Shown here: positions 7,430-27,145 of the stretch, in pieces
Position numbering within the stretch: the stretch's first letter is position 1
How the letters are laid out: each line of letters opens with the position of its first letter
Origin: Deltaproteobacteria bacterium CG_4_9_14_3_um_filter_63_12
GTDB taxonomy: Bacteria; Myxococcota_A; Bradymonadia; UBA4248; UM-FILTER-63-12
Direction of reading: 5' to 3'
DNA: 33,364 bases
Assembly (NCBI GenBank): GCA_002789955.1
Contig: PFUG01000425.1
Location: forward strand, 1 to 33,364
The notes under the pieces: model-generated
Database searches by the model: none
What the model was told of the DNA's origin: nothing
What the model saw: only the letters and a program-made list of their open reading frames with translations
Position numbers and translations under genes: made by a program

Positions 7430-9619
7430 TCAGGGCCGATCGGTGGAGTGGTCGTAGTACTGACCATAGCGTCGATAGTAATAGTAATACTTGCCGTAGC
7501 GTCGGTTCTCGAAGTTGACGTTATTCAGAATCGTCCCAATCAAATTCGCGCCGATTCCTTCAAGCAGCTCTTTGCTTCGTTTCAGGAGTTCTCGTCGAGT
7601 GCTTCCAGCCTTCGAGACAAGGATGACACCATCGACGAGTTGGGCCAGGATCATGGCGTCTGTCACGGCGATCACCGGGGGGCTGTCGATGATTACACGC
7701 TCGTAACGCTTCTTGAGCTCCTCCAGCACATCGAGAAACCTCTGGGTGTGGAACAACTCCGCTGGATTCGGCGGAATGGGACCACAGGGCAGCAGGTCCA
7801 GCCCATCGATCTCCGTCTCGAGGATGGCCTGTTCGAGCGTGGCGTGCTCGATGAGCACTTCCGATAGCCCAGTGGCAGGTTCGACTCCAAAAGCCCGATA
7901 CAGCCTCGGTCGACGCATGTCCGCCTCGATCAGGATGACTCGTCGGCTCGATTGCGACATGACTGTCGCGAGATTGATGGCGGTCGTCGTTTTTCCTTCG
8001 AGCGGACTTGGCGAGGTGACCAGGATAGTGTCCAAGCGCTTATTGGGGGACATGAAGAGGATGTTCGTACGAATCGTTCGGGCACATTCCGCGACCCGAG
8101 ACTTTGGGAAGAACCCCACGTGGAGGTCCGGTCGGTAGGTCTTGCCTTCAGGAATCTTGGCAGCCGAACGGTGATCGGTATCACGAATCGTCGGAATCGC
8201 TCCCAGGAACTGCATTCCGGTAATCCGCTCAACCTCCTCTTGCGTCTTGATCGTCGTGTCGAGCATCTCAAGGAGGAAGGCCAACACGACGCCCCCAAGA
8301 AGCCCCATGATGGCGGCGATCATGAGGTTGAACACCACGCGAGGCTTCGCGGGCTCGGTCGGGACCGTTGCGCGATCGAGGATGCGAATGTTGTTGCTCT
8401 TCAAGAGCTTCGTCAGGCTCACCTCGTTCAAACGTCGCTGCACCAACTCGAAGAGCCGCTCTTGCTCAGCCTTCTGGCTCTCGACTTGCTCATACAGCAG
8501 CTTGAGTTGGTCGAGCTTCAGCGCCTCTCCCTCGACACTGGTGATCTGCTTGCGCAGGTCGGCCTCTGAGCCTTTGTAGGCATCGTATCTGGCTTGGTAG
8601 CCACGACGAATGCTGCTGACCTCGGTCTCGAGTGCTTGTTCGACCAGCGCGAGCTGCGCCTTGATGCTGTTCGCCTGCTCCGTCCCTTCGAGATAGGTTG
8701 CGAGTACCTTCTTCTCCTCCTGACTGAGGTCAACGTACTTCTCGGTCAGCTGGGAGAGATTCGCCGACTCTGTAAGGAGCGCGACCCCGCTCGAACCTAG
8801 ATTTTCGACCTTGAACGCCTTGAGCTCCTTCAGTACGTAGCCGTACTGCCGCCGCATGGCCTCCACTTCAATCAGATTGGTGTTCAGTTCCTTGATCCGA
8901 TTGTTCGTAATGACCTGCTGTTCCTGAGGACTGGTAAACAGCAGGGGGTTCTCTTCCTTGAAGACCGTAAGCGCCCTAGTGGACTCGTTGAGCCGACTCT
9001 CATACGCAGTATATTGCGACTCCAACCAGTAGAAGGCGTCCTGCATCGTCTGCAGTCGGTTCTCGATGTTCTGGTCTCGATAGGCTTCCGCCACTGCATT
9101 CGCCAGATCTGCCGAGAGCTGAGCGGACTCGTGCTGCACTTTGATGTGCACCATCCGGGTTTCTTTCTCGGGTTCCACGCTCAGCATATCCATCAGCCGC
9201 TGCGCGGGATCGCTCTCCTCGAGCTCACGGCTCAAGACCTCCTCGTCGGTGATCTTGTCCAATCCCAGGAACTCGAGGTTCTCAGCCAAGCCGTGGTCTC
9301 GAACCACCCTTTCGGCCACGTGCCTCGACTTGATGACCTGCAGTTGAGTCTCGAAATATTGCTTCAGCATCAGCCAACTGGCTTGTCCAACTCCAGTCTC
9401 GTCGATCGCATCGCCGAAGACGCTTGGGGGCTCAAAATCGATGATCACGGTCACAGACGCTTCGTAGATCTTCGGCTGCTGAAACGTGTACAGCCCAACT
9501 CCAGTCACAATAACAACGAAGACCAAGACGACCGTCCAGAGCCGCTTGACGATAACCCCCCAATACTCTCGGAGGAGGAGGCCTTCGCTGTCTTGTGCTG
9601 CTTCAGGGGTATCCGACAT
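7430..9619 (-). CDS. Polysaccharide co-polymerase fused to bacterial tyrosine kinase (Wzc-like)
   Basis: Two TM segments with a Wzz-like periplasmic coiled coil; Walker A TSPSPLEGKTTTAINLA, A' VILIEADMRRP, B RVIIDSPPV; C-terminal Tyr cluster RRYGKYYYYYRRYGQYYDHSTDRP. Upstream alternative start at 9637. Confidence 0.92.
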   Translation of the reverse strand: MSDTPEAAQDSEGLLLREYWGVIVKRLWTVVLVFVVIVTGVGLYTFQQPKIYEASVTVIIDFEPPSVFGDAIDETGVGQASWLMLKQYFETQLQVIKSRHVAERVVRDHGLAENLEFLGLDKITDEEVLSRELEESDPAQRLMDMLSVEPEKETRMVHIKVQHESAQLSADLANAVAEAYRDQNIENRLQTMQDAFYWLESQYTAYESRLNESTRALTVFKEENPLLFTSPQEQQVITNNRIKELNTNLIEVEAMRRQYGYVLKELKAFKVENLGSSGVALLTESANLSQLTEKYVDLSQEEKKVLATYLEGTEQANSIKAQLALVEQALETEVSSIRRGYQARYDAYKGSEADLRKQITSVEGEALKLDQLKLLYEQVESQKAEQERLFELVQRRLNEVSLTKLLKSNNIRILDRATVPTEPAKPRVVFNLMIAAIMGLLGGVVLAFLLEMLDTTIKTQEEVERITGMQFLGAIPTIRDTDHRSAAKIPEGKTYRPDLHVGFFPKSRVAECARTIRTNILFMSPNKRLDTILVTSPSPLEGKTTTAINLATVMSQSSRRVILIEADMRRPRLYRAFGVEPATGLSEVLIEHATLEQAILETEIDGLDLLPCGPIPPNPAELFHTQRFLDVLEELKKRYERVIIDSPPVIAVTDAMILAQLVDGVILVSKAGSTRRELLKRSKELLEGIGANLIGTILNNVNFENRRYGKYYYYYRRYGQYYDHSTDRP

Positions 9620-9786
9620 GCGCAACCCAAATTCCATGCTGTGCGCCCCCGCTCACGAGCGCCGGGCGCCCAAGAGAGCGCCACTGTCAAACGTTCCGCA
9701 ATCCGGCGGCAACCGAGAGCCCACCAGAATGACCACAGCTGTTCAGCAAATCACTGTCCAAGTTCGAAAGTACGCTGAAAGGCGCT

Positions 9787-9930: not shown

Positions 9931-10554
9931 CTAGAAGGGAGCTTCGGGGACGTAGATGAAGTCCCCTGGGTGAAGGCAAACGTTGGAAGCTCCTTCGGCG
10001 CCGGTGACGATCAAGTGGTACGGAACGACGACGGCTTCTGTCTTCCCATCACCGATCTTTCTCGTAATCACGAGTGTTTTCTGCGCCCTCACCGTCAGCC
10101 CTGCCGATTGCGCGATGGCGTCGGTCAGCATCAATCCAGGACGGAACTCGATGCTGCCAGGCGTAGTCACCTGACCGTCCACGGTCACCGCAGTGCGTTT
10201 GACCTCTTTGTTCACACATACGACAGACGGGTTCTTGAGATACTGTTGTCCGAGCTGTGCGGTCAACAAAGTCTCAATCTCATCGCAGCGAAGCCCCGCA
10301 ATCGCGATGTTCCCGAGCAACGGGAAGTTGATGTTGCCTAGCGGCGATACCTCATACTCTCCCGTCAGGTCTTGCTCGCCATACACTCGAATCTCGAGAC
10401 GGTCCCATGGCTCGAAGCGGCCAATCTCCGCATCGGTGGGGCACTGCTGCAACGCCGCTTGCCAGTCTGGGGTCGGTGTACCTGAGCACGACGTCAGCAC
10501 GACCACACATAGCCAAGACACAACAATCCAAGCGAATTTCAATTTGATACTCAT
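9931..10554 (-). CDS. Short polysaccharide export (OPX/Wza-family) lipoprotein
   Basis: MSIKLKFAWIVVSWLCVVVLTSCSG lipobox; Poly_export motif RFEPWDRLEIRVYGEQDLTGEYEVSPLGNINFPLLGNIAIAGL; SLBB-like VTVDGQVTTPGSIEFRPGLMLTDAIAQSAGL; ends ...VCLHPGDFIYVPEAPF with no C-terminal amphipathic helix. Confidence 0.9.
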   Translation of the reverse strand: MSIKLKFAWIVVSWLCVVVLTSCSGTPTPDWQAALQQCPTDAEIGRFEPWDRLEIRVYGEQDLTGEYEVSPLGNINFPLLGNIAIAGLRCDEIETLLTAQLGQQYLKNPSVVCVNKEVKRTAVTVDGQVTTPGSIEFRPGLMLTDAIAQSAGLTVRAQKTLVITRKIGDGKTEAVVVPYHLIVTGAEGASNVCLHPGDFIYVPEAPF

Positions 10555-10653
10555 AGGTCCGCGCTCGCACAGAGCTGACTGCTGCATGGAGCCACCGCTC
10601 CACCACTGCAAACAGCGTGACGGCTGAGACTCGAGGTCTGGACGTCGCCTTGC

Positions 10654-11934
10654 TCAGAATTCGTAAGCCAGGTTGAGCAGCGCTTGATGCTTCACATATG
10701 AAGCGGACCCGACCGGCTGCCCGCCAACCTGGCTTCCAAAATCGGAGGAGTTGCCTCTGAGCAGGTAGGCCAACCGCGCAGTGAGACCGGGCACAAAGGT
10801 GTAGCCCAAGGCGGCGTCGACATCATAGACAGAGTCCGACCGCCCCGAGAGATCCTCTATGGCACCAAAGTCATCAAAGTTGATGTGTCCACCCAAGCTG
10901 GCATCAAAGCGGTTGGCGAACTCGGTCTGGAACTTGAGGTACAGCCTGTGGAACTTGAAGTAGTTACCAAAGGTGGAGTCCTCGAAGTTCTTGATGTAAC
11001 CGAACGTGAGCCGGGTCGCTTCCGTCCACTCGTAGCCCAACTCCCCCTGCGCGATGAACAGGTGCTCGTTTGCGCCCGCATCATAGAATGTGTAGGCGTA
11101 TCCAGCCTGGAGATTGACGTTGAGCCGGTTGAACAGCAATCCCCGCAAACCAGCCTGGGCCCGAAAGGGAGTGGCTCCGTTGTTCGCAAGGTCGAGAGGG
11201 GCTGGCAACGATCGCGTTGCGTTCGAATAGGTCAGAATGTCCTGCTCGATGCGAAGGGTGACCGCCGTCTGCGGCAAAAAACTCCAGCGCGTGATCGAAC
11301 TCAAGTGGTGATTCTGGCTGTCGATATCGCTGATCCCGTCGAAGATGCGCAGCCGAAGCTGGTAGCCAAAAGTCTGACCGAAGATCTTGCCGTCTTCGGG
11401 TTCGATGAGCGCTTCGATCCCCGGGCTGACCAAGTGGTTGTCAAGACTCACATTCGACGCCTGGTCGGCGGGCCCATTCGACAGCGCGTAGAGGAAGTTA
11501 GGCTTCATTTTGAACGTTTGAGTTGGCCAGAGCAGCAGCGAAGTGGCTGCGGAGACTTCGATTCCGCTGTTGTTCGACACGCGCTCGGCCCCGGAGAGAT
11601 ATTGCTCCCAGGTCCCGCGCACATTGGCTTCCCATTCAGCCACGGTCGGCGCTGGAGTTTCCGCGCGCAGGCTCAGGCCGGGCTTGAGCACGAACGAAGT
11701 GGTCAGCGACTCCCCTGGCGCCAACTCGCTCGGATCTTCGTAGAAGAGATTCGAGTCGTAGCCGCTCTCCACAAACGCGCCAGGATGGAGCAGCACGCTG
11801 CCCGCGCGGAGCCCCAAGGGCTCGAACTCCTGTGCCATGCCCACGCCTGGCACCAGCGCCCACATAATGGCCGCCAACACCATCGCCCGGTTTGCAGCTA
11901 CGAGACGATCATTTTGCAGGAGTGGTTTCAACAA
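10654..11934 (-). CDS. Outer-membrane beta-barrel protein, candidate export porin
   Basis: Signal peptide MLAAIMWALVPGVGMAQ-like; many alternating-residue strands (LLLRGNSSDFG..., FVPGLTARLAYLLRGN); C-terminal HQALLNLAYEF ends in Phe as BAM substrates do; adjacent to the OPX gene. Confidence 0.75.
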   Translation of the reverse strand: MLKPLLQNDRLVAANRAMVLAAIMWALVPGVGMAQEFEPLGLRAGSVLLHPGAFVESGYDSNLFYEDPSELAPGESLTTSFVLKPGLSLRAETPAPTVAEWEANVRGTWEQYLSGAERVSNNSGIEVSAATSLLLWPTQTFKMKPNFLYALSNGPADQASNVSLDNHLVSPGIEALIEPEDGKIFGQTFGYQLRLRIFDGISDIDSQNHHLSSITRWSFLPQTAVTLRIEQDILTYSNATRSLPAPLDLANNGATPFRAQAGLRGLLFNRLNVNLQAGYAYTFYDAGANEHLFIAQGELGYEWTEATRLTFGYIKNFEDSTFGNYFKFHRLYLKFQTEFANRFDASLGGHINFDDFGAIEDLSGRSDSVYDVDAALGYTFVPGLTARLAYLLRGNSSDFGSQVGGQPVGSASYVKHQALLNLAYEF

Positions 11935-11988: not shown

Positions 11989-12570
11989 TTATCGAATAGG
12001 TGAAACGTCTGGATACGGATACGTTCCGATGTCCGTTGTGTCAACCACGCCGACATCACCGATCCCATCGTCGCGGAGATCATCCGCGACTTTCACCTTT
12101 AGCTTTGTTCCATCGTCGACCTGCTGAACAATCTGTCCGTAGCAGGATTCCGCCTCTTCACCAAGTTGCTGCACTTGTGCCCCTGAGAGCCCAATCAGCT
12201 TGGCCTGGTGAATCTCTTTCTCCTCGTCGGTTCCCGATAGGCTGCGAAGAGTCACATTCGCCTTCTCGGCGACCTTGGTGAAGCCCTTGATCGCAGAAAG
12301 TCTCTCGTTGATGCAATTCAACTTCAAGACGTCCTGCTCCTCGGCTCTCGTCTGCTCCAGGAGACCTTCGACGCGGACTCGAACTTCGTTCATGTCGGAG
12401 AGCAACTCGGACGCCCAGGACAACCGCTCACTCGACGAGAGATTCTTGATGTCGGTCACCACCGGCGTCGCTCCGGCTGGCAGGTCATCGCCGCCGGCCT
12501 CTTGGCCAGTGGCAACGGGACTCAGCGACGTCAAAGCGATTAGAACGACAAGGATGGTTGTGATTTTCAT
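11989..12570 (-). CDS. Exported protein of unknown function, coiled-coil-prone
   Basis: MKITTILVVLIALTSLSPVATGQE signal peptide; helical body, 193 aa. Confidence 0.65.
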   Translation of the reverse strand: MKITTILVVLIALTSLSPVATGQEAGGDDLPAGATPVVTDIKNLSSSERLSWASELLSDMNEVRVRVEGLLEQTRAEEQDVLKLNCINERLSAIKGFTKVAEKANVTLRSLSGTDEEKEIHQAKLIGLSGAQVQQLGEEAESCYGQIVQQVDDGTKLKVKVADDLRDDGIGDVGVVDTTDIGTYPYPDVSPIR

Positions 12571-12965: not shown

Positions 12966-14372
12966 CTAACCAAACACCCAGCGCTTTGCGACGGTGATCG
13001 GCTTGCCCATCTTGGGGAACGTCCAGCGCTTGATCTTGGCCTCGACGCACTCAGCCAGGCCTTTGCCAACGTCATCCACTGACGTGTTCACGCTCAGCAC
13101 TTTGCCATCGGTTCCAATCGTGATCTTCACGACCAACTTGCCCGATTGATCGCCGTACTTCTGGATGATTCTCTTGTAGCAGTTCTCGATCTGCTTGCTC
13201 TTGCTCTTGAAGACGCTCTCGAGACCGATCTTGTCGCCCTTGGCGACACTCTCCGGGATCTTAGTCTCCTCCTTGATCTTCAGCTCAACTTTGGCACGCT
13301 CACCGGTCTCAGCCGTCTTGGGGCCAGAGCCAATGATCTTGTTGCCGCCGCCTTCGACGGACTTCAGGGAGGGTTCTCCCGTGGCGTCGCCGGCTCCACC
13401 TAGGCCCAGGCCCGATGTGGGCCCGCCGCCACCGCCGCCTCCGATATCCTCGGCATTGAGTCCGCTGAGCGCGCTGATGTGCGCATCGGCGCCGACGATG
13501 TCCTGCGCGATCGCTCCACCCAGTGAGCTCTCTCCGCCGTCCACACCAAAGACCTGTCCGATGATCTTCTTGCCTTGCTCCTTACGCATCCGCTTCTCGG
13601 CCCGGGCCTGCTCAGCGGACTTAGGTGCACGGTCTTTCTTCTCCTCGACGGCCGCCTTCTCGGGCTTGACCTGGACATCCTCGACCACCTCAGTGTTCGT
13701 GTCGTCCTTTAGGCCCTCATCGTCTTTGTTCTCGTCCTCGTCTTCGACTTCCTCTTTCTTCTCTTCCTCCTCGATGGCCTCGGCCTCCTGGTCGAGATAC
13801 CAGTCGGGGAGGTCTTCATAGCCCTCGGGTTCCGGCCAGTCCTGCAACATCACATAGAAGAGAGGACCGATCTGGAAGAGAGCGCTCATGGCAACGAAGA
13901 TGAGGATGGCGGGCCCGAGGAACGTGGAGAAGCCGGCGAGGGCCCCGCCTCCAAGTGCCGTTGGAAGCATGCCTACCGAGGCGGACGGCGGAGTGACGAA
14001 CTGAAACAGCAGACGGGTCTCCCCGATCGTCACCTTGCCTCGACCAGAGTCGTTGAGCTCGACGTCATATCCTGCTGCAGTCTTGGTCGCCGCGCTGACG
14101 TTGCGAAGCCGTGTCAGGTCGATGACCTCGTTGCCACCCAAGCTAATGCGCCCACCCATGCGGTCGTTGACATGGAGTATGTATCGACCTTGGGGGTTGA
14201 GCGTGAGCAGCGCATACGACGCTGGCATTGTCGAGGTAGGGATGACGAACGTGTTGGACAGCGTTTGCCCAATGGTCACTCCCACCCGTTTCCTAAGGAG
14301 TCGCTCTTCGACGCAGCGATCTCCCTGGAACACCCCGATACGCAGAACTTTTACGGCTGTTGGACCTGACAT
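12966..14372 (-). CDS. FHA-like / single-TM / TonB-like AgmX-PglI C-terminal domain protein (GltG/GltJ/NfsG-like)
   Basis: N-terminal FHA-like beta-rich domain, TM STFLGPAILIFVAMSALFQIG, acidic then Gly-rich linker, C-terminal QIENCYKRIIQKYGDQSGKLVVKITIGTDGKVLSVNTSVDDVGKGLAECVEAKIKRWTFPK, the AgmX/TonB-like signature. Confidence 0.85.
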   Translation of the reverse strand: MSGPTAVKVLRIGVFQGDRCVEERLLRKRVGVTIGQTLSNTFVIPTSTMPASYALLTLNPQGRYILHVNDRMGGRISLGGNEVIDLTRLRNVSAATKTAAGYDVELNDSGRGKVTIGETRLLFQFVTPPSASVGMLPTALGGGALAGFSTFLGPAILIFVAMSALFQIGPLFYVMLQDWPEPEGYEDLPDWYLDQEAEAIEEEEKKEEVEDEDENKDDEGLKDDTNTEVVEDVQVKPEKAAVEEKKDRAPKSAEQARAEKRMRKEQGKKIIGQVFGVDGGESSLGGAIAQDIVGADAHISALSGLNAEDIGGGGGGGPTSGLGLGGAGDATGEPSLKSVEGGGNKIIGSGPKTAETGERAKVELKIKEETKIPESVAKGDKIGLESVFKSKSKQIENCYKRIIQKYGDQSGKLVVKITIGTDGKVLSVNTSVDDVGKGLAECVEAKIKRWTFPKMGKPITVAKRWVFG

Positions 14373-14508
14373 GGCGTTCCCTTCGGTCTTACACTGGGCA
14401 GAGCTGGTGGCCTTCGTCTTTCAGTGACTTCGGCCCCGCCAGTGACCCATCTGTGGAGGTCGAACCAAGGCGACCTGACCTCGATTCCACCCCCACACGA
14501 GTTCTTGC

Positions 14509-15087
14509 CTAGGGGATCGCGCCACTGAAGGCGAACTTGTTCTTGATGACAGCAAACCGGAACTTCTTGAACTCCGTCGATATCGCAGTCTGCATCACCT
14601 CGGCGATCAGCCGATAGGGCGTCTCCACATCCGCGATAATTGTCATCTCTCCCTGAAACTCTCCCTTCGTCTGGCGAGCAAAATTCTTCTGCTCTTCAAC
14701 TGCATCCCTGAGGGCCGTCTCCAAAGGCTGAATAATCAACCCCGTGGCGCCGCCCTTCTTCAGCGTCTTATCGACCTTCCGGTCCGTCAAGGGCACCACC
14801 TGCTGCTCCATGACCACGATCGCCTTGCCGGTAATCGTCACTGTCGTCATGTCCTTCGGAATCACCTCAGAGGTGCTGAAGGGCAGGTCCATGTCCGGAA
14901 GCACCTTGATGGGCTCCTGACCGTAGTTCTTGAGCAAGAAGCACAGGATGATGGTCATCATATCCATCATCGAGTTCAAGTTCAGCGCCGCCTTCTCATC
15001 ACCATGAGCCTTCTTGCGCTTCGCCTTCCTCTTGTCGCGCATGCGCTTCTGAAGCAGGTCGTGTATCTGCTTCTCTTGATTATCCAT
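14509..15087 (-). CDS. ExbD/TolR-family protein (TM Asp present)
   Basis: KAALNLNSMMDMMTIILCFLLKNYG TM segment with Asp42; periplasmic region follows; next to a TolQ-like gene. Confidence 0.8.
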   Translation of the reverse strand: MDNQEKQIHDLLQKRMRDKRKAKRKKAHGDEKAALNLNSMMDMMTIILCFLLKNYGQEPIKVLPDMDLPFSTSEVIPKDMTTVTITGKAIVVMEQQVVPLTDRKVDKTLKKGGATGLIIQPLETALRDAVEEQKNFARQTKGEFQGEMTIIADVETPYRLIAEVMQTAISTEFKKFRFAVIKNKFAFSGAIP

Positions 15088-15119
15088 TAGATTATCTCCG
15101 TCGCTTTCGAAGTAGGCGT

Positions 15120-15767
15120 TTACTGAGTCGTGGGCAACCCAAGGACAACCAGAGGGAAGAGCCCCAGAGATCTCAACCCTGTTGCCCCCGTCTCCTCATC
15201 CGTCCCTTCGATCTGCACCACTGTAGAGTCATAGAGGTCTTCGGGCTTCGAAAACGAAGTTCCCTTGCTGGCGTCTTCATTACCCGGCGGCACCCGCTGG
15301 AACCGGCTCGTGTCCATCGCCTTGACGATGACCCCGAAGCTGATGTCAGCACCCGCCACAACCTCGAGCTGCTCATGGTCTGACCACATCGCATCGCCCT
15401 TGATAGAAAGGAGAGTGTTGTACAGCATCAGCCAATCATAGCGGTCGATAGGCTCTTTCGCCTCGGCGTCCCGAAGACAGATCGTCACCTGACTCCCGCG
15501 CCCCTGGCACTCGGGAATCGTTGGCATCGCACGCTCACCCTGAATGATCCAGAACCCTTCCTTGCTCACCATCAGTTGTAGACGCTTGGGGGGCTCCCCC
15601 GCGTTCGCAGCCGCTCCCAGAGACTTCTGCGGCATGGTCACATTGATGACGGTAATCTCGAGAAACACAACGCTCAAAAGGAGCAGTGGAATGAGAATTA
15701 GAACCAGGTTCATGATTGGAATGAGATCCAAGTCTCCGAAATCCTGCTCTTCTCGTACTTTCGCCAT
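15120..15767 (-). CDS. ExbD/TolR-family protein (TM position is Asn)
   Basis: GDLDLIPIMNLVLILIPLLLLSVVFLEITVINVTMP; position comparable to the protonatable Asp is Asn20 (AAC). Confidence 0.8.
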   Translation of the reverse strand: MAKVREEQDFGDLDLIPIMNLVLILIPLLLLSVVFLEITVINVTMPQKSLGAAANAGEPPKRLQLMVSKEGFWIIQGERAMPTIPECQGRGSQVTICLRDAEAKEPIDRYDWLMLYNTLLSIKGDAMWSDHEQLEVVAGADISFGVIVKAMDTSRFQRVPPGNEDASKGTSFSKPEDLYDSTVVQIEGTDEETGATGLRSLGLFPLVVLGLPTTQ

Positions 15768-15806
15768 GACGCCTCCGTTCTATAAGACTTTCAAGTAACG
15801 GTGGCC

Positions 15807-16442
15807 TCAGCTGCCGCCTTTCGCACGACTGATCAGCAGGTTCTCCAACTTCACCGAATACTGATCAATCTCTTCGACGATCTTCTTCGACATACTTGAC
15901 AACAAAAGGTGGGCAAACAAGGTCGGGATCGCGACGATCAGACCGAAAGCAGTCGTATTCATTGCGAGCGCGATACCGCGCGCCAACATCTCCTGCCGTT
16001 TGTCGGGGGTTGCAGTCTCGAGGGCCTTGAATGCGTCAATCAGACCGATGATGGTCCCGAGCAGTCCCAGAAGGGTAGCGATGTTCGCCAAACCAGCCAG
16101 AGTCGCCGTACGCTTCATCACCAACGGAACCACTTCCAGACTCGCCTCTTCGATCGCGTTCTGAATCTCGATTTCGCCCTTGTTGGCTCGCGTCAAACCA
16201 GCTTTGATCACCCTCGGCAACGCTGCACTCGGGGCTGCGTTGCAAAGCTTGATCGCGCGGTCGATGTTATTCGCCATCACCAGCTTCTGGATCTGCGCCA
16301 TGAAAGCGTGCGCATTAATGTTGTACTTGAAGAAGATAAATACGAACCGTTCGATGACGACACCTAGGGCGAGAATCGAGACGCCTAGAATCAGGTACAT
16401 CCAGATACCGCCAGTGGCGAACGCTTTCTTGATCTCACCCAT
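15807..16442 (-). CDS. MotA/TolQ/ExbB proton channel family protein (AglR-like)
   Basis: IEEASLEVVPLVMKRTATLAGLANIATLLGLLGTIIGLIDAFKAL...LARGIALAMNTTAFGLIVAIPTLFAHLLLSS: canonical TolQ/ExbB TM2-TM3. Confidence 0.95.
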   Translation of the reverse strand: MGEIKKAFATGGIWMYLILGVSILALGVVIERFVFIFFKYNINAHAFMAQIQKLVMANNIDRAIKLCNAAPSAALPRVIKAGLTRANKGEIEIQNAIEEASLEVVPLVMKRTATLAGLANIATLLGLLGTIIGLIDAFKALETATPDKRQEMLARGIALAMNTTAFGLIVAIPTLFAHLLLSSMSKKIVEEIDQYSVKLENLLISRAKGGS

Positions 16443-16756
16443 GTCTCACTGACCTCCTTCCTCGAAATTTTTTGCCATGAGCAGTAGCCAGCTCCCGCTG
16501 CCCACATACGATTTATCGCCTCGCTGCCTTGGAGCAACCGTCGATATTCTTCACTTAGCCCTAGAAACCATAAGGCGCGGCGGTGCCCTTTGGACTTTGA
16601 CCGCACTGCTATAGCACGCCTCTTTAAACCCGCCAACTCTTTTTGAAAGAGCGTTTCGGGAGCAAACCCGCCCCCTTTCAGCAACCACAACGCTCCCCAT
16701 TCGTTGTCCCCCGACCGAACAACGACCACCTCAAACGAACCACAACATTACGAATC

Positions 16757-17014
16757 TCAAAACGGGGGATTCTCGACGGTGTCATAGAGCTCAGGGAGGA
16801 ACGTCCGCTTGGGGTCGAGATTCTCGTACCGCAGCCCTTTGAATGCCAGCACTAAGTCGACACTGGGGATGTCCGCCTCGACATCCAACTGTTCGTCGTC
16901 CAGGAAGATGTCAACTGACTTGCGGCCACCACTGTCCTGCGCCATTGCACTCAAAGGAGCCAACACTACCGCACAACAAAAGACCGCGAAGATTCCCCTT
17001 ACTACCCTGCTCAT
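16757..17014 (-). CDS. Small exported protein of the motor cluster
   Basis: 85 aa; signal peptide MSRVVRGIFAVFCCAVVLAPLSAMAQ; mature DVEADIPSVDLVLAFKGLRYENLDPKRTFLPELYDTVENPPF; overlaps the upstream gene by ATGA. Confidence 0.75.
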   Translation of the reverse strand: MSRVVRGIFAVFCCAVVLAPLSAMAQDSGGRKSVDIFLDDEQLDVEADIPSVDLVLAFKGLRYENLDPKRTFLPELYDTVENPPF

Positions 17015-18387
17015 TTACCATCCTCCTCGAAGGGGTCGTCCCCACCGTCGTCGCTTGGCACAGGTTCGTCGCCAAAGGGGTCATCACCGGTCGTATCCTT
17101 GGGCTCGTCCCCAAATGAATCCGCGTCGTTGGCGCCATCGCCGAACGGGTCGTCCCCCCCACCCTCCTGCTCGATCTTCTTCAACTCGTCCTCAGCTTGC
17201 AGGATCTCGATCGCCTTGTTCGCCTTGGCGATGAACTGGTCTGGCAGCTCTGTCCCTTCTTCGTCGTCCCAGAGGTCACGGGCCTTTTGCAGCGTGGATT
17301 TCGCTTTCTCGAGCCGTGCCATTCCGCTGAAACTCGACAACGAAATGACCTCCGTCGCAAGGTACAAGGCACCGAGCGCAAAATGCGCATCCGCCCAATT
17401 CTGGTCGAACGAGATGGCTTTCAAGTAGGCAGCCTCGGCCTCGTCACCTCGCCCCTGGGCTTTCAACGCATTCCCGAGATTGAGGTGGGCGTCCTTGTAG
17501 TTCGGCGAATACTTGATCGCCGTTAGGAACGCCGACTCAGCGTCCTCAAAGTTGCGTGTGTTGTAGATCATCAACCCAAGCGCATTCTGGGCTTCTGGGT
17601 AGTCTCCACGAAGGTCCACAGCGTTGCGGAAGTACTCTTGGGCACGAATCTGGTTGTCGAGATGGAGATATACCTGCCCCTGCAGAAATTGGATCTCGGG
17701 GTCCGATGGGTCCATCTCGACGGCTTGGCCAATGATGTATTCCGCCAAACGGTACTTCTTAGCCTTGAAATTGGCGGCGGCAAGATAGTAGCGGGCACGC
17801 ACATTCGCCTCGTCGCGCTTCAACACCACGCGAGCCTGGTCAATCGTGTCGTCATAACGGCCTGCAGCAACAAGCGACTCGAGTTGCGCGATCTTGTGAA
17901 AGATGTTGTCCGGCCGTCGGTCGACCCAAAGCTTGGCAGTTGCCTCGTAATCCTCGCCCGTTCGGATCTTTGTGCGAATCAAGTTCAGCAAGGCTGGCGA
18001 GAAATCCGGCTCGATATCTAGAGCCTTCTCGTAAAATTGCGCGGCCGTTCGCGCTTCACCGGCCTGGTCGCTGAGTACACCTAAATTATAGGCCGCGAGA
18101 AAGGCCTCGGCGTCATCCGAGAGAACCTTCTGCAGTTGCGAGGTGGCCTCGCTGACCTTCCCCTCGTCGGCCAAAGCCAACGCCGCGTCGATGCGCTCGT
18201 TGCTCTCGTCGCTCGCCTTCGCAGTATAGACGACCTTGATAGGCTCCTTCTTGATCTCGACCGGACCTTCGGCTTTCTTCTCGACCGCTTTGTTCGGCTC
18301 TTCGATTTGCTTGGGCGTGCTTGAACATCCCGCCGTCGCGATCAGCAGAACAACGCCAGCCATTATGCAGGTCATTTTGTGGCTCAC
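17011..18387 (-). CDS. TPR lipoprotein (GltE/NfsE-like)
   Basis: MSHKMTCIMAGVVLLIATAGCSS lipobox; repeated TPR units (AAYNLGVLSDQAGEARTAAQFYEKALDIEPDFSPAL; DAHLNLGNALKAQGRGDEAEAAYLKAISFDQNWADAHFALGALYL); acidic C-terminus. Confidence 0.88.
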   Translation of the reverse strand: MSHKMTCIMAGVVLLIATAGCSSTPKQIEEPNKAVEKKAEGPVEIKKEPIKVVYTAKASDESNERIDAALALADEGKVSEATSQLQKVLSDDAEAFLAAYNLGVLSDQAGEARTAAQFYEKALDIEPDFSPALLNLIRTKIRTGEDYEATAKLWVDRRPDNIFHKIAQLESLVAAGRYDDTIDQARVVLKRDEANVRARYYLAAANFKAKKYRLAEYIIGQAVEMDPSDPEIQFLQGQVYLHLDNQIRAQEYFRNAVDLRGDYPEAQNALGLMIYNTRNFEDAESAFLTAIKYSPNYKDAHLNLGNALKAQGRGDEAEAAYLKAISFDQNWADAHFALGALYLATEVISLSSFSGMARLEKAKSTLQKARDLWDDEEGTELPDQFIAKANKAIEILQAEDELKKIEQEGGGDDPFGDGANDADSFGDEPKDTTGDDPFGDEPVPSDDGGDDPFEEDGK

Positions 18388-21300
18388 TTGTCCTCCATGT
18401 CGACGTCTTTAGGCTCAACGTCCTGCTCACCCTCGCTCTTGGTCGCACGGAGCAACCCGGCCGGGGATGTAGTGGTCTGCGTCAGTGCCGTTCGCTCCCC
18501 TTCGAACATCGGGTATTCCTTCGGCGCAATGTCATTCAGACCGTTGAGGGACTTGCGGGTCCACTCGTTTACGATGCTGTTGTCGCGGCCGAACTGTACC
18601 ACGGCCTCGTAGTTCTCCCTGGCCTTGTCTTTGAGCTCAAAGGCTCCTTCGAGAAGGCTCTCGAGAAATCCGTCGCAAGTGTCCGCATCGAACGACGGCG
18701 GGCACTCGGCCTGCTCCATCGAGCTCGCGAAATTGTGGAACATGCCGCCGATGCTGTACAGAGCGGCCATTGTCCACTCGGCGTTCTTATAAGTCAGCAC
18801 TTGATTGAACTTCTGTGCCACGACTGCGGAGCCTTCCTTCTTGCTCGCGACATTCTGCTTGAACTGCTTCAAGGTGCCATTGAGCTTGATCTTGCTCCAG
18901 CTCTTGAACTCCATGTCGGCCAGAAGGTACTGCGCCTTGGCGGCGAGGTAGTTGGCCTTCGTCCCCCCGACCGACGGGCTATCTTGATAAACCGTCACAA
19001 CCTTCTCGTAGAATGGTTTCGCCTTCTTCAGGTCGTTCTTCTTGTTGAAGTAGTCCCCTTGCTTCACGTAGCTCGTCAACGTGAATACCCGGAACTCGGG
19101 ATCTCCAGCGTACTTCTTCCGGAACTTCTCGAAGGTCTTGTCCATCTTCGAGTAGTTGCCCATTTCTTCGTACATCAGGCACGCCTCGAAAAGGAGCTCT
19201 GGTGCGTCCGTCTGCTCATTGTGTTCGTCGTGGTAACGCTCCATCAGTTGCGCAGCGCGTTCGAAGCTCTCGGTGTACTTCAGGATGATCGCGGCCTTGC
19301 GCAGCGCGGTGACGCGCTCTGGGTGATCAAGGAACGTCTGCCGCTTGCTGTCATGCAGCTCCAAGTAACTGTCGACCGCGGTCTCGAAATCGAAGAACCG
19401 TTCGCCGTTCACGCCGACTCGGTACAAGGCGTCCGCCGCCTCTGGCTTGTCGTTGTATTCCGTATACACGCGCTTATAGAGCCGCATCGCCGACTCGTAG
19501 CGCTGGATGCGCTCATATGCGACACCGGCGTTGTACAGGGCTAGGTGGATGTCATCGAAAGTTGGGTTCTCGTCAGCGATCCTTTCGTATTCGTAGGCCG
19601 CCTCTGCGTATTGCTCGGCATCAAAGAGCTGGCGCGCCTTTTCGAAGAGGGCGCTGTACTTGATGTCCTGCAGTTTCGTGTCGAGGTCGCTGGTTCCCTC
19701 ACCGGTGCCCAACTTCTTCTCGCGGAGCGAATCACTGATCTCCGCGACCTTATCGAGGTCACCCTCCTCTTGATACGTGTTGATCACGAACCCGGCAGAC
19801 ACCACAGCAAAGTCCGTCTCTGGATGCTGGTCGATGATGCGTCCAAAACGTGTCCGAGCCTGCTCGTAGTCGCCGTAGTGGTAGTACGTCAGCGCGTTGA
19901 GGTACTCGTAGTCATCTTCGAGCGGCTCCTCCGTCTCGGGTCGACGCGAGTCGAGGTGGTACTCTGCGTACTTGTCGCGAGCGTCCAACACTCTCTGGGT
20001 CTCCTGCGGAATCGGACGCATTACCGCCTTCTGTCCGTCGCGAGCCGCGAGCTCGGCTTCGATTGCCGCTTGATCTCCCTTGCCTTCCGAAGCCAACTCC
20101 GAGAGCAGGTACGTCGGGACGATGCTCGCTTGAACGGCACCGCGACCATATAGGGTCTTGATGTCCTCGGGGGGCAGTCCGAGTGGATCGACCTGGCCTT
20201 GCTCAACCCCTTGGTAGAGCAAGATGCTCCGCGCATCGATCGAACCCATCGCCGCGTCTCTTCGGAAACGGCCGTCGGACAGGTCTCGAATGTCATCGAA
20301 CACCACCGCCGACTTCTCGTATTGTTCAGAGTTGTAGAGCGCGTCGGCGAGAATGTAGCGATACAGATAGACGTCTTGGTCGTTGGGATACTTTTCGAGG
20401 AACCCTTGTGTCAGCTCGGCGGTACGCGTGTAGACCTCGATGGCCTTGGCTCTCGTCGTATCATGCTGGGCTTGCAACTCGGCTTGTGTCGCAGGGCTCC
20501 TCGCGGAGTCAGCCTTGGCCAAAGCCTCCTCTGCAGCGACATCGAGCTCACCAGCTTGCGTGTAGTACGTGCTGATGGAGTACATCATCGCCTTGCGTGC
20601 GATTGAATCCGCGTAGGCGATGGCCTCAAGGTTGCCATTCTGCTCCTGGCACTTGTACCACTCCGAGGTCTTCCCATAAATCGCGTCGAGATTCGACTGC
20701 ACCAACACCGCTTTCTCTCTCTGCTCCGAGAGGTTGAGTGCAGTGATGTAGGACTGGTGGATCTTGGGATTCTCGGGATTGCATACGTCTCTCTGCAGGA
20801 GAGCCTCATAGGCCTCTGCGGCGAAATCGTACCGGGCCTGCTCGGCGAGGGTGTCGGCGTAGACTCGCAGCACCTCCAACTCAAAGTCCTGTCCACTATT
20901 CAGGTACTTGTTGAACCGCGACATGCCAAAGTCCGGGTCACGGTCGATGGTGTCCTGCAGGTTCCAGTCCTCTTCGGCCAGGGCGGCGGCCATGAACTCG
21001 ATGGCCTCTTGGCGCAACGACGAACCCTTGGGAACCTGGTCGGCGTACTCCACGAGTTCGATGAAGCGGTGGATCATGCTGTCGTAGTCTTCGTTGTAGT
21101 ATTCTGTCCAAGCCAGCCGGTAGAGCGCGCGGTCATAGATCGCGTAGTCGGGTCCGTAAGCCACAGCCCGTGCGTAATACGATTTGGCGACATCCCACGT
21201 CACCTCGGACCCGACCCCCTGGATGGCATCCTGGGAACGGCTGAAGTGGTACTCCCCGATACGCGTCAACGCCTCTGGCGTCTTCGAGCTGTCTGGGAAC

Positions 21301-22058
21301 TTCTCTACCAACGCCATGAACGTGTCGTTGGCGGCGTCCTCTTGGTCCATTTGGAGCTGGCAGAAGCCAAGTAGGTAGTAGGCGCCGTCCGCCTGCGGGA
21401 AGTTCGGGAAGCGGCGGATGAGCTCGCCGGAGTAGCCAATCGACTTGCTAAAGTCAGGATAGTCCTGAGTCAGCGTCGATGGATCCGCCGAGAGATACTC
21501 TTCATCCGCCTTCTCGTAGTGAAGGACCGCGAGCCTGTAGAGCACCCCGGGGGCATAGGTCTCGTTCCGACCGTGTTTTTCGAGGAAGCGCTCGAGGCGA
21601 GCGATGGAGTCGGTGCGTTGGATCCGCTCGTCGTCTCTCAGCTTGGTGAGCTCACCCGCATAAACCTTATCGATGCTCTTGAGCTTGGCGTCGTACTCGG
21701 AGAGCACTGCGGTGCGCAGCTCGTTGCGGTACTCCGAGACCTCGTCAATGTACCGGAGGGTGGCGTTTTGGTACGCGGCCAGCTCAGCGATGGTGTTCTC
21801 ATCGGCATTCGGTGGTGTTGGGATCGGGTCGGAGAAGACACCGGTCTTCGGTTGCGCCTCGGCATCTGGAGCAGTGGGCGCGGCGGCAGCCCCATCTGTG
21901 GGTGCTGGACCTTCGTCCGCCGTCTCGGTGTCGGCCTCGGCCAACTCTGGCTCTGCTGCATCCTCGTCCTGAGCCCAAACCAGGGCCGGAACGAAGAGAG
22001 CCAGCCCCGAGAAGGCCAACCAGCAGAGCATTGGGCTCTTCCATGTCCTTCGATTCAT
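18384..22058 (-). CDS. Very large periplasmic TPR protein (GltD/AgmU/NfsD-like)
   Basis: 1224 aa; signal peptide ...ALFVPALVWAQDEDAAEPE; TPR-like repeats throughout (AYEYERIADENPTFDDIHLALYNAGVAYERIQRYESAMRLYKRVYTEYNDKPEAADALYRVG). Confidence 0.88.
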   Translation of the reverse strand: MNRRTWKSPMLCWLAFSGLALFVPALVWAQDEDAAEPELAEADTETADEGPAPTDGAAAAPTAPDAEAQPKTGVFSDPIPTPPNADENTIAELAAYQNATLRYIDEVSEYRNELRTAVLSEYDAKLKSIDKVYAGELTKLRDDERIQRTDSIARLERFLEKHGRNETYAPGVLYRLAVLHYEKADEEYLSADPSTLTQDYPDFSKSIGYSGELIRRFPNFPQADGAYYLLGFCQLQMDQEDAANDTFMALVEKFPDSSKTPEALTRIGEYHFSRSQDAIQGVGSEVTWDVAKSYYARAVAYGPDYAIYDRALYRLAWTEYYNEDYDSMIHRFIELVEYADQVPKGSSLRQEAIEFMAAALAEEDWNLQDTIDRDPDFGMSRFNKYLNSGQDFELEVLRVYADTLAEQARYDFAAEAYEALLQRDVCNPENPKIHQSYITALNLSEQREKAVLVQSNLDAIYGKTSEWYKCQEQNGNLEAIAYADSIARKAMMYSISTYYTQAGELDVAAEEALAKADSARSPATQAELQAQHDTTRAKAIEVYTRTAELTQGFLEKYPNDQDVYLYRYILADALYNSEQYEKSAVVFDDIRDLSDGRFRRDAAMGSIDARSILLYQGVEQGQVDPLGLPPEDIKTLYGRGAVQASIVPTYLLSELASEGKGDQAAIEAELAARDGQKAVMRPIPQETQRVLDARDKYAEYHLDSRRPETEEPLEDDYEYLNALTYYHYGDYEQARTRFGRIIDQHPETDFAVVSAGFVINTYQEEGDLDKVAEISDSLREKKLGTGEGTSDLDTKLQDIKYSALFEKARQLFDAEQYAEAAYEYERIADENPTFDDIHLALYNAGVAYERIQRYESAMRLYKRVYTEYNDKPEAADALYRVGVNGERFFDFETAVDSYLELHDSKRQTFLDHPERVTALRKAAIILKYTESFERAAQLMERYHDEHNEQTDAPELLFEACLMYEEMGNYSKMDKTFEKFRKKYAGDPEFRVFTLTSYVKQGDYFNKKNDLKKAKPFYEKVVTVYQDSPSVGGTKANYLAAKAQYLLADMEFKSWSKIKLNGTLKQFKQNVASKKEGSAVVAQKFNQVLTYKNAEWTMAALYSIGGMFHNFASSMEQAECPPSFDADTCDGFLESLLEGAFELKDKARENYEAVVQFGRDNSIVNEWTRKSLNGLNDIAPKEYPMFEGERTALTQTTTSPAGLLRATKSEGEQDVEPKDVDMEDK

Positions 22059-24379
22059 CAGGGTTCCTCGCTCTCTTGCCCGAGCTCTTTGAGCACCTGC
22101 TCGAAGTCCTGCTCGAGGATCTCTCTCTCTTTGTTGCGCTCGGACATCAACCGCTCGATTCTTTGGCTCTTCGCATCCTTCTGCAGCCAGGCAACGTCGA
22201 CGACGCCGACGTCCGCGGCCAAGATGAGGTCGTCGAAGAGGTTCTTGACATGCTGCCAGTGGTGGTAAGCGATCTCACCGGCGACCAACTCGACGTCGCC
22301 GTGCAGCTGGTCATATCGGACATCATATTGCTCGAGGAGGGAGCGCTCGATCGCGATTCGCAGCTTGATCTCGGAGACCTTCGAGTCGACCACGCCGGCC
22401 ACTTGCTTTCGCAGCGTGTCCAGCTCGCCCGACAGGGAGTCGACCTCGGCTCGATACTGGTCCAGCGCCTCGAATTCACCGGAGCGGCCACCGCGCGCAG
22501 TGGCCAACTCGGCCTGCTCAGCCTTGAGCGCGTCGCGATACTCATTGCGGACCCCAGACTCACGGTCGGCCAGGTTGGCGCTCATTCCTCCCAACGAAGA
22601 CTGGATGCGCAAATCGCGCTCCACGGCCAGCAGCTCTTCATGAAGCAGTTTGACGGTCTCTTTAGTGTCATTCAGCTCTTTGCTCAGCTGAACCTCCTCC
22701 TCTTCGGTGAGATCGGACTTTGGCCCGTCGATTAAGAGCCACCGTTCCATGGCTTCAACCTGCAAGCTCGTGGCCTCCAACACGGTGCTGAGTCGGTATG
22801 CCTTGAGGCTACGGTCTTCGAGAGCTGCGCGCATCTCGCGCTCACGTTGAACGTAGGCGTCGCGTGAGTTTGGAAGCTCTTCGTAGGCCTTCTCTTTTTC
22901 CTCGCGGCCGCCCTTTGCAGCGGTGTCGACGTCGAGCATCTCAGCCTCTAGGTCGTTGATGTCCCTCTGCAGCGCCTGCAGTTTCCCGTCGAAGTCCAAC
23001 GCCGCCACCCACGCCCCGCGCAACTCCGCGAAGAGCTCGTAGCGGTTTTCCGATTGGAGTGCGGCCTCCAGCTCGGAGATGAGTGCGCGAGATTCCTCGA
23101 TGTTTTGTGCGCTTTCGCCGAGGGAATGCACCATCTCTGAGGCCTCGACGGTCTGCTTATCCGGCTTGATCCAGCGGCTCGCCGAGCGCGGCAGATACTG
23201 AGCCCGGCCAACCTCATCGCGGGCAACTAGGTCTTGGAAAAAGGCCAGCTCATCGGGCTGCCCTTCAACCAACGCGTTGAGCTCGAGCAACACGGGTTCG
23301 TAGGTGTGCAGAATAGTCTCGTAGGTATCGAGGGCCTTCTCGTATTGTCCGGAGTCCTTGAGCAGATCCCCGGCGAGCCGCTGCCCATCTGGGCGGAAGA
23401 GACTGTCTGGCTTGGCGAGGTCGAGGATCTCGAGGTTTCGCAGCGCAGCCTTGACCTCTCCACGGCGGATGAAGGTCCAGGTGATCTCGTAGAGCGCCTG
23501 ATCGAAGACGTCGCTGTTGCGGTCGATGTTCTGGTAGGTATCGAGCGCCTCGGTCCACTCCTCCCGCTCGTAGTGGATGCGGGCTTTGGCCATGTTGGCC
23601 AAGTCGAGCAGCCCAACGGATTCTGCCTCGGCGAAGGCTGGGCCTTGCTCCAGTACCGTCACAAAGTTTGCCTCGGCCTCATCCAGATGTCCGAGCTTTG
23701 CTTGGACGACTCCGGCAAAATAGACCCCCTTCAGGCCGAGCAGCGAGGTCGGTTTAATGAACGCAAAGACCGCGGCCGCCTCGTCTAAGCGGCCTTCTGA
23801 GTAGAGCCCCTTTCCGCGCGCGTAGAGCAGGCCGGGCTCGGTGTTTGCGTCGGTGCCGATGTGGAGTTCCTGGTAGATCGTGTCCACAGCAGACCAATCT
23901 CCCGAGACGATGCCTGACTCGAGCAAAAGCGCGACCGCGGCCTGCTGGTCTTCCGGCCGCCCCTCCTTGAGCACCTGCAGGATCCGCCGCCTGGCGCTGG
24001 CGTGGTGGCCACTCTCGAAGAGTGCTTGAGCTTCGAGGAACAAGGCCTGTTTGTACCCTGGCTTGTCCTTCCACTGCTCGCGACTAACGATGTCAAGAAA
24101 CAGGACGCTCGCCCTCTCAGGGTCGCCCAACTCCATCAGCTTGAGGCCTTCCGCTAGTCGCAGCTCGAGTTGGAACTCCTCCTCGGCCAGGACCGAGCCG
24201 ACGTAGCGGTCGCTGAGCTCCTTGAGCGAGGCGCGCGCGCTCTCGAGCCGCTCGCCAATCGTGTTGAGCGAATTGCCACCCAGGTCTTCTTGCGACTGCG
24301 CCGTCGAGGCGGCCATCATGCTGAGCACCAGCCAAACGGCTGAGGCGAACCACAGCTTCTTCGAAGGGTCTATGGACAT
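22058..24379 (-). CDS. Exported TPR/coiled-coil protein (GltC-like candidate)
   Basis: 773 aa; signal peptide; N-terminal TPRs (FAFIKPTSLLGLKGVYFAGVVQAKLGHLDEAEANFVTVL); C-terminal long coiled coil. TGATG overlap with the following gene. Confidence 0.8.
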   Translation of the reverse strand: MSIDPSKKLWFASAVWLVLSMMAASTAQSQEDLGGNSLNTIGERLESARASLKELSDRYVGSVLAEEEFQLELRLAEGLKLMELGDPERASVLFLDIVSREQWKDKPGYKQALFLEAQALFESGHHASARRRILQVLKEGRPEDQQAAVALLLESGIVSGDWSAVDTIYQELHIGTDANTEPGLLYARGKGLYSEGRLDEAAAVFAFIKPTSLLGLKGVYFAGVVQAKLGHLDEAEANFVTVLEQGPAFAEAESVGLLDLANMAKARIHYEREEWTEALDTYQNIDRNSDVFDQALYEITWTFIRRGEVKAALRNLEILDLAKPDSLFRPDGQRLAGDLLKDSGQYEKALDTYETILHTYEPVLLELNALVEGQPDELAFFQDLVARDEVGRAQYLPRSASRWIKPDKQTVEASEMVHSLGESAQNIEESRALISELEAALQSENRYELFAELRGAWVAALDFDGKLQALQRDINDLEAEMLDVDTAAKGGREEKEKAYEELPNSRDAYVQREREMRAALEDRSLKAYRLSTVLEATSLQVEAMERWLLIDGPKSDLTEEEEVQLSKELNDTKETVKLLHEELLAVERDLRIQSSLGGMSANLADRESGVRNEYRDALKAEQAELATARGGRSGEFEALDQYRAEVDSLSGELDTLRKQVAGVVDSKVSEIKLRIAIERSLLEQYDVRYDQLHGDVELVAGEIAYHHWQHVKNLFDDLILAADVGVVDVAWLQKDAKSQRIERLMSERNKEREILEQDFEQVLKELGQESEEP

Positions 24380-24390
24380 GGGTCCTCTTC

Positions 24391-25167
24391 TTACTTGCTC
24401 GTGGCGGCGACCGCCGAATTCGACTGGTCCAGTTCGTGCTCGGTCGTCTCGTATTGAATGCTCGGACGATCTTCGAGGGGCGTGAAGAATCCGCCCTTCT
24501 CGTGGGCCCGCACGATGATCTCGTGGGCCCGGCCTTCCTCAGCATTGAAGACATAGCTCGAACTCAAAGAGTACTCGTACCCATCCATGTAGCGGAAGAT
24601 TCCCCAGTCGTTGCCCTTGTAGACCATCTTGACGACGAGCCCGTGGCTTCCTGGTACGACTTTCTCGTCGATCACGACTTCGGCATCCATCTTGTCCAGC
24701 TTGCCCGAGTAATCCAACCTCTCGAACTTCGGGTCGCCGTCCAGCGCGTAGAGCACTTGGATGAGTTGGTACTCCGCCCCCATCTCGTTGGAGTGGATGA
24801 CCACCACTTTGCTCCCGGCGATCGTGCGGCGCAGCACGGATTCGCGCAAAAGAAGCAGACGACTCTTCGTGGCGAACGTGTCCTCCTTGAGGATGTCGAC
24901 CTGGTTGCCGATCTCTCGCAGTCGCTGATCCGTTGCGTTGCGGTCCTCGAGCTGCGCTCCCCCCTCGAGCGGATCCACGAGAGGCTCCGCGGCCGTATTG
25001 ACCTCATCGGCCGCTGCAGGAACCTCGACGACTGGGACCGTGGGTTCCTCGGCCGGTGTCGCTTCCGTCTGGGCCGAAACTCCAGAGGTCGTCAGCAACA
25101 CTGCGATTGCCGAACAAACGGCGACGATTCCCTCAAAGCCGATCCAACCTGTCCTAGGCATTTGCAT
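24391..25167 (-). CDS. Exported protein of unknown function, first gene of the motor operon
   Basis: 258 aa; signal-like N-terminus ...AVCSAIAVLLTTSGVSAQTE; coiled coil LREIGNQVDILKEDTFATKSRLLLLRESVL followed by a beta-rich domain KVVVIHSNEMGAEYQLIQVLYALDGDPKF. Confidence 0.75.
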   Translation of the reverse strand: MQMPRTGWIGFEGIVAVCSAIAVLLTTSGVSAQTEATPAEEPTVPVVEVPAAADEVNTAAEPLVDPLEGGAQLEDRNATDQRLREIGNQVDILKEDTFATKSRLLLLRESVLRRTIAGSKVVVIHSNEMGAEYQLIQVLYALDGDPKFERLDYSGKLDKMDAEVVIDEKVVPGSHGLVVKMVYKGNDWGIFRYMDGYEYSLSSSYVFNAEEGRAHEIIVRAHEKGGFFTPLEDRPSIQYETTEHELDQSNSAVAATSK

Positions 25168-26954: not shown

Positions 26955-27145
26955 TGGTTTCGGTCCTCTTTACGTTCGGAGCCAGCAGGACTGGCGTTGC
27001 GTGCGGCTCGATGTCGAATCGAAGGACATCGCGACCGCAAGAGTGATAGACGGACTGGCGCTGCGCGGCAAGGATGCCAGCGCTTGCTGCCCGGCGACTC
27101 AGCCCGTTGCGGGCTCTTGAACGGTGGGTTAGGCTGCCGGCCCTA

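Follow-up and report, generated by a model that had tools for sequence, protein, structure and literature searches.

The gene cluster on the minus strand of the analysed stretch of 33,364 nucleotides (hereafter the window) probably encodes a pmf-driven trans-envelope machine of the Agl-Glt/Nfs class that is devoted to a polysaccharide leaving the cell through an OPX/barrel pore of its own, a reading to which we give a probability of about 0.6. A pmf motor, a Glt/Nfs scaffold and an outer-membrane polysaccharide pore, which are scattered in Myxococcus, lie here on one piece of DNA, and their co-location could represent a physical counterpart of the published proposal that capsule assembly and gliding are linked. 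Judged by its sequences, the cluster can be placed in the Agl-Glt/Nfs class in the broad sense, with homologues of GltC, D, E and G accompanied by a motor whose subunits are one TolQ-like protein and two TolR-like ones.

Gene Content and Extent of the Cluster

The window corresponds to contig C654 of a genome of 8.29 Mb in 689 contigs, approximately 94% complete. Nine minus-strand ORFs (258, 773, 1224, 458, 85, 211, 215, 192 and 468 aa) were found within 12966-25167, all at the places and with the lengths given in a first-pass annotation of this DNA, and, of the domains that it had named, Pfam/NCBIfam searches also confirmed TPRs, one TolQ-like (211 aa) and two TolR-like (215 and 192 aa) proteins and an AgmX tail. 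With regard to the overlapping junctions, TGATG at 22058 (between C and D) and ATGA at 17011 are present as described, while the junction at 18384 reads GTGA and not ATGA, the start codon of the 458-aa lipoprotein being GTG. The end of the unit had been set too early at 12966, as its conserved part takes in the OPX gene, down to 9931, and, in the window, is followed by Wzc, to 7430 (Table 1).

Table 1. Genes of the cluster in the window, with the basis of their assignment.
Gene	Position	Strand	Product and evidence
X	24391..25167	-	258-aa exported protein; AlphaFold pLDDT 80.7
C	22058..24379	-	GltC-like periplasmic TPR/coiled-coil; NF033756; conserved position
D	18384..22058	-	GltD-like TPR, 1224 aa; profile scores and tree
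E	17011..18387	-	GltE-like TPR lipoprotein; NF033758
F	16757..17014	-	85-aa exported CglF/GltF-like peptide; NF033764 via orthologues
R	15807..16442	-	AglR/TolQ-like motor ring subunit; MotA_ExbB and tree
Q	15120..15767	-	first TolR-like subunit; ExbD; Asn20, codon 15710-15708
S	14509..15087	-	second TolR-like subunit; ExbD; Asp42, codon 14964-14962
G	12966..14372	-	short GltG-like TonB-type transducer, AgmX/PglI tail; NF033760, NF033768
H	11989..12570	-	exported protein, two conserved cysteines
barrel	10654..11934	-	18-stranded AlgE-like outer-membrane beta-barrel; BBP2_2, AlphaFold, PDB matches
OPX	9931..10611	-	short OPX/Wza-type lipoprotein; PF02563 and SLBB; true start probably ~10554
Wzc	7430..9637	-	co-polymerase / tyrosine kinase; Wzz, GNVR, AAA_31

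The grouping of these genes goes beyond chance, because RQSG is contiguous in 55/55 orthologous loci with enough sequence, and the other genes stand upstream of it in 36 to 41 of the 42 loci compared (X in 40, C in 39, D in 41, E in 41 and F in 36). The single operon of the first-pass annotation is a candidate, with intergenic gaps of 314 bp between the 85-aa gene and the TolQ-like gene and of 395 bp after G. Terminator-like matches in the cluster were not more frequent than in shuffles, and an Rfam scan of the window gave no match. Divergent from the cluster, on the plus strand, the window also holds an FHA-GAF-sigma54 activator (27074-29098), a candidate regulator, and, further on, an ATP-dependent DNA ligase-like protein (31713-33161).

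Scaffold Proteins

TPRs are present in the 773-, 1224- and 458-aa proteins (Pfam/NCBIfam). The GltC model NF033756 scored 46.5 bits on C (P0002; cut-off 450), the GltE model NF033758 93.2 bits on E (P0004; cut-off 225) and the GltG model NF033760 81.7 bits on G (P0009; cut-off 650), while the tail of G reached 52.6 bits with NF033768 (AgmX/PglI), above the cut-off of 40. As C, E and G are far under the curated cut-offs, they can be regarded as relatives of the gliding proteins and not as those proteins themselves, and none of the three scores would make the cluster an equivalog of the Glt gliding machine. Although the 85-aa protein of the window (P0005) itself gave no match to the CglF model NF033764, this model matched 14 of 29 orthologues (best E 1.4e-4), and F sits between E and G, as gltF does in M. 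xanthus (PMC3169522). With a profile built from D, scores of 240-576 bits were obtained for its counterparts in 15 Glt/Nfs-type clusters, so D groups as GltD-like; C and D also match YbgF-type TPR models. The homology to Glt/Nfs that had been proposed for the cluster is upheld by these matches. M. xanthus GltD, GltH, Nfs and AglRQS entered all comparisons through NCBIfam models or published descriptions.

In the D tree, which is unrooted, the operon-type and the Glt/Nfs-type proteins form two clades (support 100). The suggestion that the cluster might be an ancestral version finds no backing in these two groups without a root, nor in the motor, whose lost Asp is derived (see below). In the TolQ-like tree, long detached branches nest within the operon clade, with a long-branch warning.

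The label FHA-like given earlier to G proved weak, as neither P0009 nor its 19 orthologues gave an FHA match. X has no Pfam family, and it was found in operons of the window's type only, with no counterpart detected in the 15 Glt/Nfs-type clusters. Its AlphaFold model (pLDDT 80.7) consists of a long helix and a beta-sandwich, and a fold search returned weak matches only (TM ~0.3), adhesin-like and carbohydrate-binding-module-like.

Motor Subunits and Their Asp Residues

R was matched by MotA_ExbB (E 8e-25), and Q and S were matched by ExbD (E 6e-6 and 1.2e-10, respectively). In the tree of TolQ-like proteins, built without M. xanthus AglR itself, the R-type proteins of the cluster and those of detached Q-R-R motors form one clade (support 100/94) that excludes TolQ and ExbB of E. 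coli as well as the myxobacterial TolQ encoded next to TolB/Pal-like genes. The AglRQS-type motor of the first-pass annotation is borne out by this clade, and branching with TonB-ExbB or Tol-Pal systems, named there as evidence against it, was not observed. A Tol-Pal or TonB-ExbB origin of the motor is ruled out by the same tree, and a TolQ next to TolB/Pal-like genes is present separately in the window's genome.

At the position of the membrane Asp of E. coli TolR and ExbD, the column of the proton-carrying residue, the window has N20 in Q and D42 in S. Among 104 non-redundant motors, the Q/S residues were N/D in 65, S/D in eight, A/D in three, G/D in two, D/G in two, D/A in one and D/D in 23, and a motor with no Asp in either TolR-like subunit did not occur (0/104). 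Exactly one Asp-bearing TolR-like subunit was found in 78 of the 85 motors of the cluster's type, and S was devoid of Asp only where Q retains it (L122, L134, L139). Parsimony on the tree requires four changes of this column for Q and two for S; the Asp loss in the motor is a derived state.

The loss of Asp, widespread in one partner and never seen in both, suggests either a mixed axle or one partner that is out of the ion path. The sequences would most simply be read as an axle that pairs one Q with one S and has a single proton site; alternatively, Q may no longer take part in the ion path. For M. xanthus, the Asp is reported in AglQ as well as in AglS, and according to a 2022 review (PMC9389320) it is not known whether the two pair with each other or each with itself, a question on which the one-Asp pattern bears. 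A more far-reaching version, in which an obligate two-chain axle with one proton-carrying chain directly energises polysaccharide export through the OPX/barrel pore, is put forward tentatively, and we consider it rather doubtful. If true, each turn of such a motor would consume five protons, not ten, and OPX-dependent export would include a pmf-driven step that is absent from the accepted scheme.

Several related motor genes are organized differently. At five loci (L124, L129, L133, L135, L137), a TolQ-like gene with 62-65% identity to P0006 stands as an orphan, with no adjoining TolR-like gene, and the genomes of L133 and L137 also carry the full cluster. Two divergent Q-R-R motors stand back to back at L208 (G178) and L214 (G340), with Asp in both TolR-like subunits, while L143 holds two tandem Q-R-R motors away from any C-D-E-F-G cluster.

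Downstream Export Genes

The first-pass annotation had reported no barrel in the operon; an 18-stranded barrel is, in fact, encoded by the second gene after G. It scores just under the cut-off of BBP2_2, its AlphaFold model (pLDDT 87.5) has 18 long strands, and most of the best PDB matches of this model are AlgE, the alginate exporter. The OPX protein (226 aa) matches PF02563 (E 3.7e-18) and SLBB. Short OPX proteins are known to work with a barrel of this kind, as EpsY does with the 18-stranded AlgE-like EpsX (PMC9601211), and the pair in the window, a short OPX (<=280 aa) with a syntenic barrel modelled with 18 strands, is predicted to be a composite OPX/barrel translocon of the same sort.

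The OPX of the cluster is the only copy of PF02563 found in the window's genome. Throughout 57 genomes of the class, one OPX gene was found in 46, two in nine and none in two. In 24 genomes, an OPX gene is no more than ~13 kb away from D or R, and in 21 of these it is the sole OPX found.

H (193 aa, exported) has no Pfam family and carries two conserved cysteines, C86 and C143; its identification with GltH is unsupported, given these cysteines and no match to a Pfam autotransporter or other barrel domain. Wzc was rejected as a constant part of the unit, since it lies directly downstream in only 8 of 30 relatives. Nothing in the cluster was identified as a glycosyltransferase, Wzx or Wzy.

Conservation in Relatives

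The cluster is not unique to the window's genome, as it is widespread in Myxococcota. The order X-C-D-E-F-R-Q-S-G-H-barrel-OPX repeats in most of 80 loci from named genomes, including those of Plesiocystis pacifica, Enhygromyxa salina and Lujinxingia vulgaris. Downstream of G, the barrel was found in 35 and OPX in 33 of 46 loci with enough sequence; the remaining 13 had no OPX in reach, some owing to an insertion after G. In contrast, none of the 15 Glt/Nfs-type clusters surveyed has an OPX beside C-D-E-F-G.

In relatives of the same order, X-C-D-E-F, R-Q-S-G and barrel-OPX-Wzc occur on separate contigs. Such modules can separate, which makes the argument from linkage weaker, yet still standing, and gene order indicates that the linkage of barrel and OPX to the motor cluster is conserved, not incidental. 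The orthologous clusters of three genomes (G108, G040, G077) are without RQS, and related motors elsewhere in these genomes are D/D where the pair is readable.

One sub-lineage (L097, L101, L122, L130, L139) has extra conserved genes between G and H, coding for a ~345-aa protein, a cNMP-binding protein (PF00027) and an FG-GAP propeller protein of 1283-1601 aa. The propeller is integrin-like, with cellulose-binding-like matches, and could be a surface adhesin.

Relation to Known Systems

The motor and complex in one unit had been presented as a novelty, which was overstated, as such clustering was published in 2011 (PMC3169522) and 2013 (PMC3858216). Luciano et al. reported that gltC, D, E and G are clustered with aglRQS in several bacterial groups (PMC3169522), Wartel et al. 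described gltCDEG-aglRQS as a standalone core machine (PMC3858216), and this core, which occurs in gamma-proteobacteria, Geobacter and Fibrobacter, was proposed to be a basal machine (PMC3169522, PMC3858216). The window has the same C, D, E and G with the motor in one cluster and differs by adding F, X, H, the barrel, OPX and a one-Asp motor, in a comparison that covers C, D, E, G and the motor genes of the published cluster.

With the Nfs, AglRQS and Exo systems of M. xanthus, the cluster shares the C-D-E-F-G parts, the class of motor and a polysaccharide exported by OPX and barrel (ExoA/ExoB). There, however, motor, nfs and exo lie at three loci, and NfsA/B-type barrels, judged from the description of Nfs, were not seen in the window's cluster. 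The Glt machine (GltA-K) of the same species is likewise built of C, D, E, F and G, paralogues of those in the cluster, and has a motor of the AglRQS type, whereas G of the window is without a detected FHA domain and the scores are far below the equivalog cut-offs; GltA, GltB, GltI, GltJ and GltK models matched none of the nine proteins, and a scan of the neighbours with Pfam only also gave no match. As for AglRQS itself, the composition of one TolQ-like and two TolR-like subunits is the same, with R in the clade of detached motors, and the difference lies in the Asp, present in both AglQ and AglS but usually in only one TolR-like subunit of motors of the cluster's type. R also sets the motor apart from Tol-Pal and ExbBD-TonB, being outside the TolQ and ExbB clades. 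Like EpsX/EpsY, the window combines a syntenic 18-stranded AlgE-like barrel with a short OPX without a membrane-spanning part, although this pair ends a motor operon and not a biosynthesis cluster.

As far as the searched open literature shows, the recurrent OPX/barrel ending, the OPX that is sole in its genome, X, H and the one-Asp motor are new. Part of the capsule link, and perhaps the OPX linkage, may have been anticipated by Agrebi et al. in 2015 (Nat Rev Microbiol 13:318).

Proposed Function and Alternative Explanations

We infer that the parts of the cluster form one complex, that its cargo is a polysaccharide and that its job is export or surface transport, not gliding. R and the Q/S pair would form a TolQR-type motor in the inner membrane, whose work would be carried across the periplasm by G, a single-pass TonB/TolA-like transducer, and passed to the small peptide F and to the scaffold of TPR proteins, C-D-E. 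The polymer, fed by Wzc or an unlinked co-polymerase, would reach the short OPX as a periplasmic adaptor and exit via the barrel, and the motor complex could pull, move or gate the polymer or the pore, in the way in which Agl-Nfs spreads the spore-coat polymer Exo. X and H would be adaptors peculiar to the motor-OPX version. In Myxococcus, GltG and NfsG are both binding partners of AglR, and once the Exo polymer has been exported, the Agl motor transports it, together with Nfs, round the spore (PMC3858216); by analogy, the cluster is most likely comparable to Nfs with the Exo exporter built in.

The emphasis of the first-pass annotation was on gliding, and the kinship of the parts with GltC, D, E, F and G, together with the AglRQS-type motor, would suit an alternative Agl-Glt engine that moves surface adhesions, with OPX and barrel merely secreting slime underneath; the FG-GAP and cNMP-binding proteins between G and H in one sub-lineage, the former a possible adhesin, would fit as well. 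We regard this as unlikely. Because of the OPX/barrel linkage, gliding is the less likely reading and a capsule or slime machine the more likely one; no GltA/GltB-type barrel gene was recognised in the unit, G is without a detected FHA domain, and the core alone occurs in non-gliders (PMC3169522). Moreover, L061 of the same genome, where an OMP_myx_plus barrel adjoins C-D-E, is a better Glt candidate.

The polysaccharide reading is itself tempered, because genetic linkage is no proof of shared cargo. According to Wartel et al., machines of the Agl-Glt/Nfs class may have a protein or a lipid as their cargo (PMC3858216), and the complex could transport a protein or lipoprotein on the surface, with OPX and barrel handling a glycan that decorates it, as the adhesin-like and carbohydrate-binding-module-like matches of the X beta-sandwich might suggest. 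These matches are weak, however, and no cargo protein is conserved across all clusters, so we see little likelihood in such a cargo. It is equally improbable that the genes encode a Tol-Pal-like machine for general envelope maintenance with polysaccharide export genes adjacent by chance: the TolQR/TolA-like parts and the YbgF-type matches of C and D would agree with it, but R falls outside Tol-Pal, the genome has its own TolQ by TolB/Pal-like genes, and barrel and OPX are conserved neighbours of the cluster.

Other Glt/Nfs-type Loci in the Genome

Besides the motor-OPX cluster, the window's genome carries two further clusters of the Glt/Nfs type, both motorless, and an AglRQS-type motor at a locus of its own. 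L060 is organized as GltC (311 bits)-D-E-CglF-GltG (362 bits), and the other motorless cluster is L061; if the organism glides, either of them is a better candidate for its Glt machine than the motor-OPX cluster. The detached Q-R-R motor (L062; G000:C156, 7711-13428) adjoins a 1012-aa Ser/Thr kinase fused to an AgmX/GltG-type tail. The AgmX/PglI C-terminal domain has 26 matches in this genome (G000), apparently a large set of TonB-like tails.
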